64,000 nt of DNA from Bacteroidota bacterium (lineage in GTDB: Bacteria > Bacteroidota > Bacteroidia > Chitinophagales > Chitinophagaceae): assembly GCA_026391455.1 (NCBI GenBank), contig JAPLEH010000043.1:1-64000 (forward strand). The letters are read 5' to 3'. Position numbers and translations under genes: made by a program. Of the stretch, positions 2,505-10,054 are shown one piece after another. The notes beneath the pieces are model-generated. The model was given only the letters and a program-made list of their open reading frames with translations, did not search any database and was not told the origin of the DNA. Numbering within the stretch: the stretch's first letter is position 1; every line of letters begins with the position of its first letter.

Positions 2505-3497
2505 TTAAAAAACATCTGCCAAACTCTTTGCCTCTAGTAACCTGTCTATTGATGTGTACCTGGGGGCCTGCGGAGCAAGGCCTTTTTTGGACTTATCCAG
2601 GGGAATCGCTTTTATCTTAATTGCTTTGTCTTTGAAATACAAAATATACTTATTCGTGTCGTTCCACTTTTCAATTTTTGAAACCTCAGCATAATAGGTA
2701 ATTGCCGATACAGGCGCTACCTGATATGCGGCAATGTATTTGATTTTATCCAGCATGGAGGCGTGAATCCGGATAGCGTACCAGCAATTCTTTTTTAAAA
2801 ATTCTTGCTCAAAACCTTCCTCCCTAGCCGCCACCACAACGGTATTCAGGTCCTCTGCTTTGATGTCCGATTTGGAGGATTCTGTGAGTTCTCTGATATC
2901 TGCGTTAAATGGAGTGAATTTATGTATCCTGTCCGAACCATTGAAAAATGTCTGAAACTCAAGAATGTCTGTGTCCATAGTGAGCTGGCTCAATACATTT
3001 TCAAGTTCGGGGGTTGATTGGTCAATGATTACAATGGCCGCAACTGTTTTTTCAAAAATGATGCTTTCTAAAAAATCATCAATGTTTCTGTATCCGGCAG
3101 CTTTTAATCCCTTTTCCGCCTTCTCAAGAGCCGATTTATCTGACATAATATGCTCCAGTAGGAATGCTTTTATTTTTCTTCCGCTTGCTTTATATGAAAT
3201 GGCAAATTTGAGTAGCTGAGAACCAATATGTTTATAGGGGTCGTGGCTGGAAAGCTCATTCTCAATAATATACAATCTTGGTTCTTGCTCGAACGAAAAA
3301 TCTATCAGGTAGCCATCTGGTATGGTAATGATGCTGTCTCCAATTCTCTTTTTAATATCAATGTATATGGACTGATTGCCGAAGATATGCCGGGACTGCT
3401 GCACAATTACCTGTTCAAATTCTTTCTCTGATGGATACTCATAGTAAGAATAAGTGAAGTCGCTGTGTAAGATTTTTTCCATTATATTAAAATTCAT
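2505..3497 (-). CDS. Probable PD-(D/E)XK-like protein of the restriction operon
   Basis: The protein has 330 residues, and its start codon overlaps the stop of the Res gene by 4 bases (ATGA), implying translational coupling. In the N-terminal 100 residues, EKEFEQVIVQ is followed by IPDGYLIDF (Asp61) and then LYIIENELS (Glu79/Glu81), with HIGSQLLKF behind. This strand-strand-helix order with an acidic pair is typical of PD-(D/E)XK nucleases. The usual lysine is replaced (E-N-E rather than E-x-K), so it may be a divergent or inactive nuclease. The C-terminal half is unrecognised and has a YAIRIHASMLDKIKYIAAY core. It probably acts with the type III-like complex; this is inferred from position. 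Confidence 0.55.
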   Translation of the reverse strand: MNFNIMEKILHSDFTYSYYEYPSEKEFEQVIVQQSRHIFGNQSIYIDIKKRIGDSIITIPDGYLIDFSFEQEPRLYIIENELSSHDPYKHIGSQLLKFAISYKASGRKIKAFLLEHIMSDKSALEKAEKGLKAAGYRNIDDFLESIIFEKTVAAIVIIDQSTPELENVLSQLTMDTDILEFQTFFNGSDRIHKFTPFNADIRELTESSKSDIKAEDLNTVVVAAREEGFEQEFLKKNCWYAIRIHASMLDKIKYIAAYQVAPVSAITYYAEVSKIEKWNDTNKYILYFKDKAIKIKAIPLDKSKKGLAPQAPRYTSIDRLLEAKSLADVF

Positions 3498-6133
3498 TTG
3501 CCCAATTCCGAAACAGAAGAGACCTGTTTGTAAACAATGTCTTTGAATTGTTTAAAATGCTCGCTTCCGCATTTTATTTTCAGCTTCTCACTTCCCCTTA
3601 ATTCCTGACCAGCACTCTTCGTTTCTGAAACAAAATATATTTTACTCACATCTTTAAATACCACTGCCCAATCGGGATTATATGTGCCTATAGGCGTGTT
3701 TATTTTAAACCAAAATGGTAGTTTAAAATAGAATTCTACATTTTCGCTACTCTCACAGTCCTTAGCAAACTGGCTTTCAACATCAGATTGCAAAGGAATC
3801 AGATTTTCATAAATCGTTTTTTCCGGCTCTGTTACTTTATGGGTGAATTTGTCAATGTATATTTCCAGTTCATTATCTTCAAACAATTTCATTTCATATA
3901 CCTTGCTGCCAATTTTTTCATACTTGATTCCTTCAATCATTAATTCATATAGTACTTTACGTGTTGCCAATACCACATTATCCATGAATAATTGCGGATT
4001 AATCAACACTTCAGCAATCCGGCCTGATTTTTTTAATATCTCCAGGATAGTGGAACGTGTTAATTCGGTCTTTGATTGAATATAACCCAGCATATCAGGC
4101 ATTTCTAAAGGTATGCCATAGTCGTTATTGCCGCTATCACTAAGCAATAAGCCTTTTATCCCTTCATCAGTAATTTTTACAAAATTTTTATTGCTGCGAA
4201 TCGATGGCTTTTTAGTTTCTGGTATTTCTTTTACAGCTTTTGCTGCCAATGTAATTAATTCAGCAGTGTCGTAATTAACACTGTATTTGGTATGAAATTT
4301 TATCTTATCCCATATTTGCAAAAACTTAGGATCTGCTTCAAAACCTTTACGAAGCTTCACTTTTTGTTTGTTGCACTTATCTTTTATTCTTCCGCTAAAA
4401 TCCACCCCGCAATCCTGTTCAATTTCTTTTTGCAGTGCTTTAGCAAATTCTTCGTAAGACTCATTGGCAACAACGGTGAGCCGGTTTATGCTTCTGTCAA
4501 AAATCCGCTGCCCTTCATTATTTACACTCAGACGCAGCCCCCGGCCAATTTCTTGCCGCTTTTTAATTTCAGATTTTGTTTCATTTAATGTACATATCTG
4601 GAATACGTTTGGATTGTCCCAGCCTTCTCTCAGCGCCGAGTGGCTGAAAATAAAGCGCAAGGGCGTATTTATATCAAGCAGCCTTTCTTTATCCTGCATG
4701 ATGAGTTTATAGGTGTCATCATCCGCTTGTGTTTCGCCGCCAGTATCTTTTACTTTTCCTTTATTGTCCTGTGAAAAATACCCTTCATGCAGGTCTTCAA
4801 CTTTGTTTGATATTAAATCTTTGAATATTGGTTTTGCAATTTCTTCCTGATATATTTCTTCAAACCATTTAGCGAATCTGCCCGGAACTTTGTTTCCATT
4901 GATATCGTACTCCCGGTAATTTTTTACTTTATCAATAAAAAATAATGAAAGCACTTTAATGCCTTTAATGCGCAGTTGCTTTTCTTTTCTTAAATGCTCC
5001 TCTATGGTTTTACGAATCATAAATTTCATGACTTCATCATTCATCCCCCCCTGGCTTTGTCCAACTCCTAATACAACACCGTTAGTTAGTTCTATGTGCT
5101 GGCTTCCAAAATCAATTTCATATACCTTCAATCCATCATAGCGGTCATTTCTCCCGCTTAATTCAAACAAATCATTCTTTTTAGCGTTTGCCGTAACTAT
5201 TTTTCTCTTTACTCCATCGGGTGTATTTACATCAATCTTTATTTTGGCTGTAATACTATTTCCAGACCGGTTAACAGATTCTACTTGGATATAAGCACTG
5301 TTAAAATCGTTTTCACTTAATACTGAGTCAACTTCAATCTGTTTCACCAAACCCAGATCATATGCCTTTACAGGGTTAAGCGAATACATAAGATTATATA
5401 AATTGGTATGTGTGGCGGAGTAGCGAAGGGTGCAAAGCGGGTTCAGGTTTTCAATAGCTTTTTTCCTGATTTCCGTTTCCATGTTCTGAGGTTCATCCAC
5501 AATCACAATGGGGTTTGTGCATTGTATAAACTCTATAGGTTTTTTACCTGTTAACTTGTCATTAGCTTTATTAATAATATTTTCGTCCTTCGCAAAAGAG
5601 TCAATGTTAATAACAAGAATCTGGATAGCATTGCCACTTGCAAAACCACGAAGGTTGGATACTTTTTTACTGTCGTACACTTCGGGGTTCACTTGTACTT
5701 TGTCATACAAGGTTTGAAAATGTTCATGGGTAATCTGCAGGTTTTTCAGCACTCCTTCCCGAATGGCAACCGAGGGTACTACAATGACAAATTTTTTAAA
5801 ACCATATAATTTGTTCAGCTCAAAAATGGTACGGAGGTACACATATGTTTTGCCCGTACCCGTTTCCATCTCAACTGTAAAGTTCATTCCCTCAAGGGCT
5901 TTTTTATTATTCTTTATTTCATTGGCAGACTGAATTGTTTTTACATTTTCCCAAATCTGTTCTGCAGACAAGGTAAGTCTGTTGCCAAATCCATTTTCGG
6001 AATGAAGTGTGCCTGCCGGATTGATACTATATTCAAAATCCCCACCATTTAAAGATTGGCCTTCAAATATATCGGTGATGGATTTTATCGCATCCAATTG
6101 ATATTCCTGGTTGCTATCGAAGTGTAGTTTCAC
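3494..6133 (-). CDS. Type III restriction enzyme Res-like subunit (helicase-nuclease)
   Basis: The 879-residue product carries superfamily 2 helicase motifs in order: motif I METGTGKT (89-96), motif II DEPQ (213-216), motif III SATHTN (239-244), and a late motif RQEIGRGLRLSVN. A C-terminal nuclease-type motif reads NPDWAVVF...VSETK, with the acidic residue near 821 and ETK at 837-839. That matches the PD-(D/E)XK domain of type III Res subunits. The enzyme would translocate with ATP and cleave DNA lacking the Mod methylation. Its start overlaps the DUF4276 gene by 4 bases and its stop overlaps the following nuclease-like gene by 4 bases. Unlike classic mod-res pairs, it is separated from mod by two genes. 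Confidence 0.9.
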   Translation of the reverse strand: MKLHFDSNQEYQLDAIKSITDIFEGQSLNGGDFEYSINPAGTLHSENGFGNRLTLSAEQIWENVKTIQSANEIKNNKKALEGMNFTVEMETGTGKTYVYLRTIFELNKLYGFKKFVIVVPSVAIREGVLKNLQITHEHFQTLYDKVQVNPEVYDSKKVSNLRGFASGNAIQILVINIDSFAKDENIINKANDKLTGKKPIEFIQCTNPIVIVDEPQNMETEIRKKAIENLNPLCTLRYSATHTNLYNLMYSLNPVKAYDLGLVKQIEVDSVLSENDFNSAYIQVESVNRSGNSITAKIKIDVNTPDGVKRKIVTANAKKNDLFELSGRNDRYDGLKVYEIDFGSQHIELTNGVVLGVGQSQGGMNDEVMKFMIRKTIEEHLRKEKQLRIKGIKVLSLFFIDKVKNYREYDINGNKVPGRFAKWFEEIYQEEIAKPIFKDLISNKVEDLHEGYFSQDNKGKVKDTGGETQADDDTYKLIMQDKERLLDINTPLRFIFSHSALREGWDNPNVFQICTLNETKSEIKKRQEIGRGLRLSVNNEGQRIFDRSINRLTVVANESYEEFAKALQKEIEQDCGVDFSGRIKDKCNKQKVKLRKGFEADPKFLQIWDKIKFHTKYSVNYDTAELITLAAKAVKEIPETKKPSIRSNKNFVKITDEGIKGLLLSDSGNNDYGIPLEMPDMLGYIQSKTELTRSTILEILKKSGRIAEVLINPQLFMDNVVLATRKVLYELMIEGIKYEKIGSKVYEMKLFEDNELEIYIDKFTHKVTEPEKTIYENLIPLQSDVESQFAKDCESSENVEFYFKLPFWFKINTPIGTYNPDWAVVFKDVSKIYFVSETKSAGQELRGSEKLKIKCGSEHFKQFKDIVYKQVSSVSELGK

Positions 6134-6795
6134 TGTGCTGTTGCTTTTGCTATAATTGTATCAATCCAGTTTTTAAACCTTGGGCATTTTGCTAAAATGG
6201 GGGCTATCCCATTTTCAAGAGCAATCATTGGCCCATGGAACGGTTTTACATATTTCTTTGGTATTATAGTAAATGTGTCTTTCAGTCGTACAGATGGTGC
6301 GGTCGCTGCTCCGTCATTTATCATTTCAGGATTTGGGTACCGATTTATTACATATTGAATGTGATTTGTAATTTTTGGAAAATAGGTTTGAAAACCTTTA
6401 ATATCCGAAAAAAGCAAACCTTCAAACTCATGAAGCTGGATATATGGAATCATTCTCGGATTATTTAAATCATTGCTTATTTCCTGTTCAATTAATTGCA
6501 CACTATTATTTCTAAAAGGCAGGGCTAATGCGGCTGTATAGCCTGGAAAATCTTTCCGCAGTTCATAAAAATCTATTAAAGAAGTAACAATACAGGTTGG
6601 ATCTGAAACTAAAAGGTTTGATGCATTGGCTCTGTATTTTTCATATCTGATATCCCCGCCGTAATGACCTGGGCTTGTTTCAATAGGTATAGGCACCGCA
6701 TTAATTATACCAAAGCCGCTTAAATATGGTCCAATCAGGCTATTTACAAACTCTTCCTCGGTAGGGCCTTCTACAATTATATTGACTGTTCTCAT
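6130..6795 (-). CDS. DUF4276 family protein (TOPRIM-like)
   Basis: The start was chosen at the ATG at 6795, because it overlaps the ATPase stop by 4 bases and leads straight into VNIIVEGPTEEEFV, a TOPRIM-like glutamate motif. The length is 221 residues. Further acidic positions follow in SLIDFYELRKDFPG (about residues 72-85) and YIQLHEFEGLLFSD, both typical of DUF4276. The TOPRIM fold is found in nucleases and primases and in the AriB effector of PARIS defence systems; a nuclease role here is inference. Its stop overlaps the Res start by 4 bases. Together with the upstream ATPase it forms a two-gene module inside the restriction operon. A longer start at 6858 is open but would overlap the ATPase by 67 bases. 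Confidence 0.75.
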   Translation of the reverse strand: MRTVNIIVEGPTEEEFVNSLIGPYLSGFGIINAVPIPIETSPGHYGGDIRYEKYRANASNLLVSDPTCIVTSLIDFYELRKDFPGYTAALALPFRNNSVQLIEQEISNDLNNPRMIPYIQLHEFEGLLFSDIKGFQTYFPKITNHIQYVINRYPNPEMINDGAATAPSVRLKDTFTIIPKKYVKPFHGPMIALENGIAPILAKCPRFKNWIDTIIAKATAQ

Positions 6796-7868
6796 CTTGG
6801 CCGCCCTCCCAAAATATTTTTCTCCCACAATTCTCCCAATGAATAATCTTTTAACCAAACAGCCAGTGACTCTTCGGTGTGTCTTTTGAAAACTGTTTCA
6901 TGGTTGTTTTCTCTCTGTACTACTAAAATGTCTTCCGGAGCAAATTCATTAACCAGGTTTACAGACTGTGTGGAAATAATTATCTGTGACGTATCGGAAA
7001 CACTTAGAAGCATTGCAGCTAACTTGCTAATAGCAAATGGGTGCAAGCCCAGCTCTGGCTCATCAATTACAATGGTGGCGGGCGGTTTTGGCTGCAATAG
7101 TAGTGTGGCTAAACAAATCATTCGTAATGTGCCATCTGATAAATTGTGTGCTGTAAACAACTGATCAAATCCTTTTTCTTTCCATCTTAGAAATATCTGT
7201 TCGGAATTAAGCTCATCAGGCACCAGGTAAAAGCTATCAAAGAAAGGTGCAATTGATTGTACAACTCTTTCAATCATCCTAAAACTTTCAGGGCTTGATT
7301 CCTGTAGCCTGTACAGAAATGCAGCTAAATTACCACCATCTTCCTGCAAAAAAGCATAATCAATTAGATTACAAGGCTGCTTTACTTTAGAGTTAAATCC
7401 TGTATCATGAAAGTGAAATAGTTTCAAGTCATTTAGATTGTCTCTTAAATAGCTGGATCTGTGCCATCTGTGATTTTTTAGTTCGCTTTCTAACCTTAAA
7501 GAGTTATCTATTTCAAGGTCTCCCTGAGTGGTATTAGTCCACTCGTCCCGAAAGATTAAACTACCCGTTAGATCAGGTATTAAAGTAAATGCGTATTCAT
7601 TTTCATACTCATTATCAAATGTTATAGTTCCGCTTAAATAACTTGAATATTTACGTCCAAAAAATAGAAAATTATCAGCCCGTCCATTTTGAATAATATA
7701 TGTTTGAAGTTGCCTTGTATAGAGTTTATTCAAAAATTTAAAAAAACTGATAAAATTACTTTTGCCAGCACCGTTAGCCCCAATCAATACATTGACCGGT
7801 TTTAATTCTACAACACCCGAATCCTTAATTGACTTAAAATTTTGTATGTGAATAGACTGTATGCCCAT
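6792..7868 (-). CDS. AAA family ATPase (OLD/RecF-like)
   Basis: The 358-residue product opens with IHIQNFKSIKDSG and a Walker A site GANGAGKS (30-37). An ABC-type signature LSDGT lies at 243-247, Walker B VIDEPELGLHP at 267-277, and a sensor-like IIISTQS around 297-302. This is the architecture of AAA_21/AAA_15 proteins related to RecF, OLD nucleases and the AriA ATPase of PARIS. It lacks a fused TOPRIM domain, which is supplied by the next gene with a 4-base overlap. It starts 10 bases after the mod stop. The likely role is an ATP-dependent sensor or scaffold gating the TOPRIM partner; this is drawn from related systems and not shown by the sequence. Confidence 0.85.
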   Translation of the reverse strand: MGIQSIHIQNFKSIKDSGVVELKPVNVLIGANGAGKSNFISFFKFLNKLYTRQLQTYIIQNGRADNFLFFGRKYSSYLSGTITFDNEYENEYAFTLIPDLTGSLIFRDEWTNTTQGDLEIDNSLRLESELKNHRWHRSSYLRDNLNDLKLFHFHDTGFNSKVKQPCNLIDYAFLQEDGGNLAAFLYRLQESSPESFRMIERVVQSIAPFFDSFYLVPDELNSEQIFLRWKEKGFDQLFTAHNLSDGTLRMICLATLLLQPKPPATIVIDEPELGLHPFAISKLAAMLLSVSDTSQIIISTQSVNLVNEFAPEDILVVQRENNHETVFKRHTEESLAVWLKDYSLGELWEKNILGGRPR

Positions 7869-7878
7869 TTTGTAATGT

Positions 7879-9741
7879 TTAAATCGTTTTAAAATCTATG
7901 CCTGCATCTTTCATTTGCAGCACAGTATTTGTTTTCAATTGATCATTGCCGCTAAACAGATTGTCCAATGTGATAACTTTTTTTGGTTTTGCTGCAATAA
8001 TCGCCTGAATTGTTTTTTCGTCTATTTTTTGTAATACAAGTATGAGTTCCCCGTTTGCTACAACAAAGTAAGCACCTGTTTGCTCTATCTTATCAGTAAG
8101 TAAATAACCTGCCTTCAACATCAGCTCATACAGTATATTCTGCTCAGCACTCCCTTCATGTACAGGGTTGGTGAATACATCTAATTGCTGCACTAGGGTT
8201 TCTTCATTAATATCGGCGCTTCGCCATATTTTAAAATTGGAAGGGGTGAGTTTGAATACCCGGAAACCTAAATCCTGTTTGCCAGTATCGAACATATCAG
8301 GCTTTTCGATTTTTTCTTTTTCAATTTTTCTTATTACTCGCCTGATTCGTTCTTTTGATATATCAGCAATTGTTTTAAATCCTGCTTTATATGCTTCGCT
8401 TTCTTCATCGCATATTTCTGGTAGTTGAACTAAAATAAACTTTCTTTTTCCGTTATTCTCCTTATTAAGTTCTAAAACAGCCTGTGAGGTAGTGGCAGAG
8501 CCACCAAAAAAATCCAGAATTATTTCCTCATCTTGGCTGTTTTTATCTAAACCTTGTTCTATTAGAGCTTTTATTAGTATGACAGGTTTTGGAAAAGGGA
8601 AGAAATTGCCTTCTAATAAATCGCGCAATTCTCTTGTGCCATTTAATGTATATCCAAGGTCAGTTGGAAGCAGAGATGAAAAGCCTGTATAATCGCTTTC
8701 TAACTCTGATAGAAATTTTTTTTCTCTAGGTCGACCATCTTTTTTTATCGGAAAAACGATTCGTTTATCAGCAATTTTTGCAGCCATTGTTTCTTTCGAA
8801 TACCTCCATCCAGTTTCTGGAGGTGGTGAATAGGTAATATTTGTATCTGGGTCAGAAATTATATAGTGTAAATTTGGACGTTGCCCTGCTGTTGCCAAAC
8901 CTAAAATACTATTGCTCATCCAAGGACCTCTTGAATCATTATCAGGGTTTTTATATTTAGTTATGTCACTTTTTTTGCCACGCAAAACTCCAGTATTCTT
9001 AGCAAAACAAAGAATATACTCATGATCATTAGAAACACCATTTTGTGTTCTGCTGTCTACAATTTGCCTACTTTTCCAAATAAATGAGGCAATGAAATTA
9101 TCTTCTCCAAAAATCTCATTCATTAGTAAACGCAAATTATGTATTTCATTGTCATCTAAATGAACGAAAATTACTCCGTCTTCCTTCAATAAGTTTTTAG
9201 CTAGGAATAATCGAGGGTACATCATGCTAAGCCAGTTACTATGATAGTGCCCGCTGTCTTTGCTATTCTTGCGAAACATACCTTCTTTCATCAGATAACC
9301 TTCTTCGTCTTTCTCCCCGATGCGTTTTTCGTAGTCGGCTTTGTTCTCTTTAAATTTATCAGGATAAATAAAACTATCGTTGCCCGTATTGTATGGCGGA
9401 TCAATAATGATGCACTTTATTTTATTGTAGTAGCTCTTTTGTAATACTTTCAGCACTTCGAGGTTTTCCCCTTCAATAAAAATATTTTCTGTTGTATCAA
9501 AGTTTATTGATTCCTCCGGCATTGGTTTTAAAGTGGCAGTAGTCGGCACTTGTAATATTCTAAAGGCATCGCTTTTGCCAGCCCAGTTCAATACATAGCG
9601 TTCATTGGAAAAATTGATATCATCGCTGAATGTGGCTTTCAGCTTTTCCCAATCCAATTTGCCTTCTGTAAACAGGGAAGGGAATAGTTCTCTTAGTTTT
9701 GCGAGGTTATCCTGTTCAATATTTAAAGACTCTCCGTTCAT
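7879..9741 (-). CDS. Type III-like DNA methyltransferase (Mod), adenine N6 or cytosine N4
   Basis: The 620-residue product has motif IV DPPYNTG at residues 114-120, before the AdoMet motif DFFGGSAT at 410-417. This is the beta-class amino-methyltransferase order. DPPY and the large region between the motifs, which usually holds target recognition (roughly 230-400), fit type III Mod subunits. It would methylate the host recognition site and give specificity to Res. Its ATG overlaps the XRE stop by 4 bases. No simple-sequence tract able to phase-vary the gene was seen. The C-terminal 200 residues (about 430-620) are helical and probably mediate complex assembly. Confidence 0.9.
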   Translation of the reverse strand: MNGESLNIEQDNLAKLRELFPSLFTEGKLDWEKLKATFSDDINFSNERYVLNWAGKSDAFRILQVPTTATLKPMPEESINFDTTENIFIEGENLEVLKVLQKSYYNKIKCIIIDPPYNTGNDSFIYPDKFKENKADYEKRIGEKDEEGYLMKEGMFRKNSKDSGHYHSNWLSMMYPRLFLAKNLLKEDGVIFVHLDDNEIHNLRLLMNEIFGEDNFIASFIWKSRQIVDSRTQNGVSNDHEYILCFAKNTGVLRGKKSDITKYKNPDNDSRGPWMSNSILGLATAGQRPNLHYIISDPDTNITYSPPPETGWRYSKETMAAKIADKRIVFPIKKDGRPREKKFLSELESDYTGFSSLLPTDLGYTLNGTRELRDLLEGNFFPFPKPVILIKALIEQGLDKNSQDEEIILDFFGGSATTSQAVLELNKENNGKRKFILVQLPEICDEESEAYKAGFKTIADISKERIRRVIRKIEKEKIEKPDMFDTGKQDLGFRVFKLTPSNFKIWRSADINEETLVQQLDVFTNPVHEGSAEQNILYELMLKAGYLLTDKIEQTGAYFVVANGELILVLQKIDEKTIQAIIAAKPKKVITLDNLFSGNDQLKTNTVLQMKDAGIDFKTI

Positions 9742-10031
9742 TTCCTTTCTTTTATTTTTTTTGATACTGATTTCAAAGCTTCACCAGCATAAGTTTCATT
9801 TTTCACCACATTATACACTTGGTCAGCGAGCCATACCGTCAAAAGCGCCTCTTTATCTGATTTTAATATTTTAGCCAGCTTTACTACTGTTTCTTTTTTA
9901 GGAATGCGCTCACCTCGTTCAATTTTGCTATATAAGGGGGTGTCCATTTCAAGCAGAGCGGCAACCTGGCGTTGCAGGAGCTTTTGCTGGCTTCTTAGTT
10001 CCTTTATTCTATTTCCGAGTTGAGTGCCCAC
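9738..10031 (-). CDS. XRE-family HTH regulator of the restriction operon
   Basis: This 97-residue protein has an N-terminal Cro/CI-type helix-turn-helix: GNRIKELRSQQKLLQRQVAALLEM, then YSKIERGERIPKKETVVKLA. The frame begins at a GTG (10031). Its stop overlaps the mod start by 4 bases, so it is the first gene of the six-gene run. Small XRE proteins in front of restriction-modification genes often act as C proteins that delay restriction until methylation is complete, and autoregulation is likely here. A perfect 6-base inverted repeat (10041-10054) sits 10 bases upstream and is a candidate operator. Confidence 0.85.
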   Translation of the reverse strand: MGTQLGNRIKELRSQQKLLQRQVAALLEMDTPLYSKIERGERIPKKETVVKLAKILKSDKEALLTVWLADQVYNVVKNETYAGEALKSVSKKIKERK

Positions 10032-10040
10032 TTTTGAGGT

Positions 10041-10054
10041 TTTGACTTGTCAAA
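10041..10054. promoter_or_regulatory. Candidate operator of the XRE gene
   Basis: TTTGAC-TT-GTCAAA is a perfect inverted repeat with a 2-base spacer, centred about 16 bases upstream of the XRE start codon. The arrangement suits binding by a small HTH dimer. The operator role is inferred from symmetry and position only. The rest of 10055-10298 is AT-rich and shows no gene. Confidence 0.4.

Follow-up and report, generated by a model that had tools for sequence, protein, structure and literature searches.

Defence modules nested inside a larger defence operon are already known from Hma, from type I restriction-modification (R-M) and from BREX. By the account in PMC12255303, DarTG2 lies between hsdS and hsdR of a type I R-M operon together with the repressor RptR; the sections of PMC11341690 and PMC12839542 on embedding place PARIS and other OLD-ATPase pairs inside BREX; and HEC-01 is an Hma-embedded candidate, from the HEC and PDC embedding work to which PMC12988326 refers. 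Here we consider a six-gene minus-strand operon in the window, i.e., the 64,000 nucleotides (nt) analysed at the start of contig C26 in the 5.5-Mb genome of a Chitinophagaceae bacterium. We regard it as probable that this is a type III R-M operon, made up of an XRE controller gene, mod and res, in which the junction between mod and res is a cargo slot that now holds HEC-01, and that an R-M-associated gene has been appended behind res. What is new is a variant of such embedding at the type III mod-res junction, where the docking site is unusually clean. The titles and abstract openings of the literature on type III embedding contain no mention of a slot for cargo that separates mod from res; the preprint of Payne et al. 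2024 (10.1101/2024.01.29.577857) may describe it. With open reading frames (ORFs) called mechanically throughout, and lengths in amino acids (aa), the operon reads as follows.

9738..10031, minus strand: XRE-type helix-turn-helix (HTH) gene, controller-protein-like; 97 aa, GTG start; Pfam HTH_3 2.4e-11
7879..9741, minus strand: mod, type III DNA methyltransferase; 620 aa; PF01555 1.6e-32, PADLOC MTase_III 8.6e-194
8443..9075, minus strand: variable middle of mod, presumed target-recognition region, where DNA homology breaks against the related loci L054, L053 and L055
6134..7878, minus strand: cargo slot, from mod stop to res start, where homology breaks against the empty-slot relatives L053 and L055
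6792..7868, minus strand: OLD/AAA_21-type ATPase, HEC-01A; 358 aa; PF13304 2.2e-32, PADLOC HEC-01A 1.4e-137
6130..6795, minus strand: DUF4276 protein, HEC-01B, predicted TOPRIM nuclease; 221 aa, start ATG 6795
3494..6133, minus strand: res, type III restriction helicase-nuclease; 879 aa, GTG start; PF04851 and PF19778, PADLOC REase_III 5.5e-301
2505..3497, minus strand: tail gene, nuclease-like protein in two parts; 330 aa if started at ATG 3497, ATG 3482 being the more likely start

How general the slot is can be seen from the relatives of Res. One scan of the GTDB genome collection gave 343 relatives, the best 80 of which were kept. A mod gene was recognised upstream of res in 63 of the 80, and the remaining 17, with a contig end or no recognised mod, were set aside. 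When cargo is defined as same-strand genes of at least 70 aa between mod and res, the slot is filled in 49 of the 63 loci and empty in 14. All but two of the filled slots (47/49) hold a gene of at least 150 aa, and their median length is 1758 nt; at the empty junctions mod and res are separated by −4 to 11 nt in 13 cases and by 130 nt in one. Only one of the 63 junctions, that of L091, contains an ORF on the opposite strand. The slot extends beyond the Res subfamily of the window: in a type III group with a divergent Res, about 1040 aa long (nine loci from the taxonomic family of the window), there are genes between mod and res in three loci (L047, L048 and L050) and none in six, and in L047 two of the four genes in the interval lie on the opposite strand. 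The genome of the window itself has a second, divergent mod/res pair (G000:C25:7594-12555, L213) with a 3-nt gap and no cargo.

The edges of the slot are conserved. Mod ends in [DE]FKT[IV] in 53 of the 63 loci and in close variants of this motif in the others, and res starts with xTGA in 61. The last cargo gene overlaps the start of res in 31 of the 49 filled slots, by exactly 4 nt in 24 of them, where it stops on the TGA of the res start, and it ends at most 10 nt before res, overlaps included, in 41. This is tighter than chance; for contrast, a same-strand gene of at least 150 aa begins within 30 nt at only 16 of 76 junctions between res and a tail gene, a count made with thresholds other than those used for the slot. 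Since the 24 cases of 4-nt overlap span 12 slot compositions and 10 different clusters of last genes, the overlap is a property of the slot and not of HEC-01. It may have been selected for coupling, or it may be a by-product of a conserved Met-Lys start of Res.

Close relatives show what changes between these edges. The Res protein of the window belongs to a clade of five loci with support 100 (FastTree, with 23 open forks in the tree), whose other four Res proteins are 89-92% identical to it. Within this clade the window and L054 carry one version of HEC-01, L053 and L055 have an empty slot, and L056 carries another version. When the DNA of the window is compared with that of L053 and L055 (Res 90-91% identical), homology ends at the mod stop at 7879, resumes at the res start at 6132 and ends again at the end of res at 3492. 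In L056, the Res protein is 89% identical to that of the window, but the ATPase is only 57% and the DUF4276 protein 48% identical. The HEC-01 proteins of L056 are instead close to those of L078 (ATPase 83%, DUF4276 81%), although the Res of L078 is only 73% identical to that of either the window or L056. On the Res tree the minimum numbers of changes are at least 5 for HEC-01 presence, 11 for empty versus filled and 42 for slot type. This comparative evidence points to modules exchanged as whole blocks between the conserved 3' end of mod and the conserved 5' end of res. Mod itself has a second place of this kind: its DNA homology to L054 is interrupted between 9076 and 8442, and L053 and L055 break at about the same place.

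The contents of the slot are diverse. Clustered by BLAST only, the slot genes, including the pair of the window and genes upstream of res in loci where mod was lacking, fall into 49 protein clusters. The chosen cargo proteins match the PADLOC models HEC-01, HEC-06/GmrSD, SoFic, IetA/IetS, NsnA/B/C, QatA/QatC, short pAgo, type IIG R-M, PDC-S02 (YhcG), PDC-S05 (RhuM), PDC-S13 (Bro-N), PDC-S22 (KilA-N) and PDC-M19A/B. At a cut-off of 1e-6, 27 of 30 chosen proteins match PADLOC, and 19 of 30 do so below 1e-50; among 10 control genes drawn at random further downstream the corresponding numbers are 3 and 0. Several of the PDC and HEC labels, however, stem from the embedding approach itself, which makes the PADLOC test of the cargo partly circular.

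Some recurrent cargoes deserve separate mention. Eight loci (L061:6223-10004, and also L057, L059, L063, L111, L122, L128 and L130) share a pair composed of an SMC/AAA-like ATPase of 849-878 aa, truncated in L128, and a Schlafen AlbA_2 protein of about 390 aa; the pair has partial PADLOC matches only (Ppl 8.9e-34, pAgo 1.9e-17) and may be an undescribed defence module. Another pair (L082:7834-10004, L117 and also L073) joins an AlbA_2 Schlafen protein of 399 aa to a ParA/AAA_31-type ATPase of 326 aa, again with partial PADLOC matches only. In seven loci (L127:9339-10004, L085, L087, L101, L102, L104 and L129) a protein of 221-250 aa is encoded in the slot behind a type IIG enzyme; the one that was scanned has no family match except a weak one to PDDEXK_9 (E 0.023). 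The slot of L102, from Belliella kenyensis, contains an HEC-01 pair, a type IIG pair and a 106-aa ORF stacked behind each other.

The two proteins in the slot of the window have HEC-01A and HEC-01B of PADLOC as their best families. The ATPase has a Walker A motif (GANGAGKS), LSDGT and VIDEPE. The DUF4276 protein has PADLOC matches at 0.01 only to the HEC-01B models, and a search of PDB sequences with it gave no convincing relative; its predicted structure, with a predicted local distance difference test (pLDDT) score of 84, has OLD C-terminal regions as top match by both comparison methods, with unrelated folds close in Z. Five acidic residues (E9, E13, D75, E123 and E125) are invariant in nine of nine sequences and may be catalytic. 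A literature search for 'DUF4276' found no papers.

DUF4276 matches occur in 70 of 345 genomes sampled from the phylum. Among 30 fetched loci, mostly the best-scoring, our own profile recovered DUF4276 in 25, with an ATPase gene directly upstream in all 25, and found none in the other five, which have distant DUF4276 types. No mod or res profile match lies within five ORFs of the pair in 22 of the 25 loci; in a minority of these the neighbours were scanned for other kinds of R-M as well, and a few of the contigs end at the pair. Seven of the 25 lie beside or inside genes of R-M type: between mod and res in L202 and L205; overlapping a PglZ gene by 4 nt in L193; between an Eco57I-type methylase and an unscanned 844-aa gene of the same length as the PglZ gene of L193 in L197; 4 nt before HsdR in L204; one small ORF upstream of a type ISP protein in L195; and behind a methylase fragment in L192. 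In L051 (G054), HEC-01 sits between a distant mod/res pair. The ATPase-DUF4276 pair thus behaves as an independent two-gene module.

This module resembles HEC-01 as named in its strong matches to both models, in the overlap of its two genes and in its embedding in a larger defence operon, but the host is a type III R-M system rather than Hma, and other loci have PglZ, HsdR or type ISP genes beside it. The name is a record of discovery and not of function. PARIS likewise pairs an OLD-type ATPase (AriA) with a TOPRIM nuclease (AriB), and it also occurs inside a modification-based system, BREX, as the accounts of embedding in PMC11341690 and PMC12839542 have it; the present ATPase, however, matches HEC-01A at 1.4e-137 and AriA at 1.3e-32, and the DUF4276 protein has no AriB match at 0.01 in PADLOC. 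The embedded DarTG2 shares with the window a defence module placed between R-M subunits and a small autorepressor, putative in the window, at the operon head, but, as PMC12255303 describes it, the host there is a type I system and the cargo is unrelated to HEC-01.

The type III frame itself is conventional in its proteins. Mod has DPPY at residue 114 and DFFGG at residue 410, the order of a beta-class amino-methyltransferase, in which DPPY precedes the FxGxG-type motif. Res combines a superfamily 2 (SF2) helicase (PF04851) with a C-terminal endonuclease domain (PF19778), and its Walker A, DEPQ and NPDW...ETK motifs are intact. In domain content the two resemble classical type III R-M of the EcoP1I/EcoP15I kind, from which the operon differs by its cargo, by the XRE gene at its head and by the extra tail gene; with 1745 nt between them, mod and res depart from the usual, though not strict, type III adjacency. 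A preliminary description of this DNA held that classic type III systems have only mod and res. This is dated, since PMC8259958 reports, in its passages on operon content, type III systems with an additional SF2-like, helicase-like ATPase encoded 5' of mod. Those systems are similar in having an extra ATPase gene beside type III R-M, but it is an SF2-like gene upstream of mod, whereas here an OLD/ABC-type ATPase and a nuclease-like partner stand between mod and res. Where PMC12707154 and PMC8259958 outline type III systems, they cover mod and res, with or without a single additional ATPase gene 5' of mod, and not a mod-res slot.

The same preliminary description had the gene map largely right. 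The six ORFs are present in the order and at the positions that it gave, and Pfam and PADLOC bear out its names for the XRE, mod, AAA, DUF4276 and res genes, the label PD-(D/E)XK-like for the tail gene being based on a motif. Three of its four 4-nt overlaps stand, i.e., XRE/mod (9738-9741, ATGA), ATPase/DUF4276 (6792-6795, ATGA) and DUF4276/res (6130-6133, GTGA), where the res start codon also holds the DUF4276 stop, and so does its 10-nt gap, between mod and the ATPase gene. The fourth overlap, res/tail at 3494-3497, is doubtful: in L054 the ATG overlapping the res stop is in another reading frame than the tail gene, and the tail therefore probably starts at ATG 3482, the start common to both loci, 11 nt after the res stop. 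In L054 the ATPase/DUF4276 and DUF4276/res overlaps are also 4 nt, and the XRE/mod overlap is 1 nt. The reading as a mod/res operon whose genes are closely packed and which holds an ATPase/TOPRIM-like cassette is supported as well, and so is a defence context.

From these observations the following mechanism may be proposed. Mod would methylate host DNA and Res would cut unmethylated invader DNA, as expected from their families, and HEC-01 would act as a separate second-line effector. By analogy with OLD, Gabija and PARIS, the ATPase is expected to gate a nuclease: this OLD-family ABC ATPase is probably the sensor of an infection cue and would then license the putative TOPRIM nuclease DUF4276, in the way that AriA licenses AriB in PARIS. 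The cargo is probably carried on a shared, XRE-controlled transcript, and it is probably coupled translationally to res, because the res start codon (ATGA or GTGA) supplies the TGA stop of the upstream gene. Blocks would be exchanged by homologous recombination in the flanks formed by the 3' end of mod and the 5' end of res. In Salmonella, according to the deletion results given in PMC11341690, removal of the embedded PARIS leaves methylation near wild type and does not lower defence, and this is, by analogy, what the slot predicts for the present operon.

A stronger version of the same reading can be put forward tentatively. The junction may be a true docking site, in which the [DE]FKT[IV]-stop of mod and the xTGA of res let any in-frame ORF end at, and couple to, res. 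Whole defence systems could then be plugged in, swapped or stacked under the operon's own controller, and both the target specificity, in the middle of mod, and the second-line effector, in the slot, would be exchangeable.

Two other explanations are unlikely, in about equal measure. According to the first, HEC-01 and other cargoes are guards, which monitor the restriction enzyme and fire only when a phage inhibits it, as has been proposed for PARIS in BREX. This would account for the variety of R-M-type genes (type III, PglZ, HsdR, type ISP and methylases) beside or around HEC-01 in the seven loci above, and PMC12839542, where it treats PARIS-like pairs in BREX, reads them as a countermeasure to anti-restriction proteins. 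The 22 HEC-01 loci where no mod or res match was found nearby, with the limits given there, count against such a role. Moreover, the BREX-embedded PARIS of Salmonella is inactive with Ocr in the experiments that PMC11341690 reports on this point, the anti-restriction functions of T7 and T3 are said in PMC12707154 not to inhibit type III enzymes, and ArdB has no effect on type III in the tests mentioned in PMC10149784.

According to the second, the junction is no more than a place in a defence island where insertions are tolerated, and its genes are closely spaced only because the genomes are compact. Defence genes do cluster generally, the region after res varies too, 14 of the 63 junctions are empty, and in the divergent type III group three of nine loci also have genes between mod and res, in one case with the opposite strand in use. 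Passive clustering would not lead one to expect a single opposite-strand ORF among 63 junctions, nor that the last cargo gene, in 41 of 49 filled slots, would reach to within 10 nt of res or into it when close spacing is found at 16 of 76 res-tail junctions, the different thresholds of the two counts notwithstanding.

That all six genes form one composite restriction machine, with the ATPase, the DUF4276 protein and the tail protein as obligate type III subunits, as the preliminary description proposed, is highly improbable in spite of the tight gene spacing and of a DNA identity of about 80-82% to L054 over 10068-2497, the variable mod middle excepted, and is rejected since the full gene order recurs in only one of the best 80 Res relatives (L054; some contigs end close to res), since the pair is missing from the sister loci L053 and L055, where the tail gene is also a different one, and since the pair behaves autonomously, being found elsewhere with no mod or res match within five ORFs. 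Genes that are seldom together in other genomes were the refuting outcome which the preliminary description had itself named. The original observation was thus real and mostly read correctly, but over-read as one machine; function, coupling and the mechanism of exchange are what we infer from it.

Returning to the slot reading, its controller at the operon head has a candidate operator.

10041..10054, minus strand: candidate operator, 14-nt perfect palindrome TTTGACAAGTCAAA, which ends 9 nt before the XRE start

The identical palindrome stands at the same distance from the XRE start in L054, and in L055 a compensated version, with both arms changed together, stands 9 nt from it. The core of the palindrome is found at 11 nt in L061, at 14 nt in L036 and 50 nt away in L078, and L057 has half-sites with a 7-nt spacer; it was not found in L042, L047 or L048. 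Altogether, a palindrome lies near the XRE start in five of ten XRE loci checked. A small HTH regulator at the operon head with a putative operator beside it fits the controller (C) proteins of R-M systems, and, because the palindrome is kept near the XRE start in close relatives, with the compensated version in L055, an autorepressed operon head is suggested for these. Promoter and terminator scans gave results at chance level.

The gene behind res is another matter. The tail protein matches nothing in Pfam, NCBIfam or PADLOC at 0.01, a search of PDB sequences gave no convincing relative, and a search of viral contigs gave no match. Its motif reads IPDG...D...E-N-E; in the D...ExK signature D66 and E79 are invariant in nine of nine sequences, and where the lysine is expected there is E, D, N, F or L. 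An AlphaFold2 model from two sequences has a pLDDT of 36. The nearest relative is in L054 (90%), and the other strong ones are in L144, L145 and L223 to L226. They lie near a type IIG R-M gene (L144), 2 nt before an MmeI-like enzyme (L223), near a C5 cytosine methylase (L224) and within a distant type III island (L225); in L145 and L226, both near contig ends, no R-M neighbour was seen. In two weaker relatives, L146 and L147, it is the N-terminal part that is shared, and in L146 this part is fused to a RAMA domain. It is plausible that the tail protein is a modification-dependent nuclease accessory, but its catalytic lysine is not conserved. Its C-terminal part is the following.

2505..2846, minus strand: C-terminal 113 aa of the tail protein, common to plasmid proteins annotated GIY-YIG nuclease; no Pfam name

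This part is 54% identical over 113 aa to a Tolypothrix plasmid protein and is present in 6 of 296 genomes of the phylum, that of the window included. It occurs on two nuclease-like N-termini (window 2505-2846, L214:3395-4339, L215:3173-3943), an instance of domain shuffling. The tail was also considered as a constant part of the system, and this was rejected: the tail position holds an unrelated DUF5655 protein in L053 and a DUF4917/SIR2-like one, with a 93% relative in L100, in L096. The DUF5655 proteins of L053 (12662-13570) and L055 (6372-7163), 73% relatives of each other, have weak HSDR_N_2/NucS matches. Because these two loci, near-identical in Res, carry a different nuclease-like tail gene, the 3' side of res is also variable. 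Further on, at 308-1472, two minus-strand ORFs adjoin the operon, one with a weak HEPN match (E 0.002, below the cut-off) and one LRAT-like (PF04970 1.5e-8); they are possible extra genes of the island.

The type III mod-res junction is thus a sharply bounded and reused slot: at least a dozen cargoes unrelated to each other occupy it across loci, they share its junction device, and in some cases blocks have clearly been exchanged. Genes found between such mod and res genes offer a practical route to new defence candidates. Near-identical frames that are empty, or carry one version of HEC-01 or the other, make it testable why second defences nest in R-M operons.

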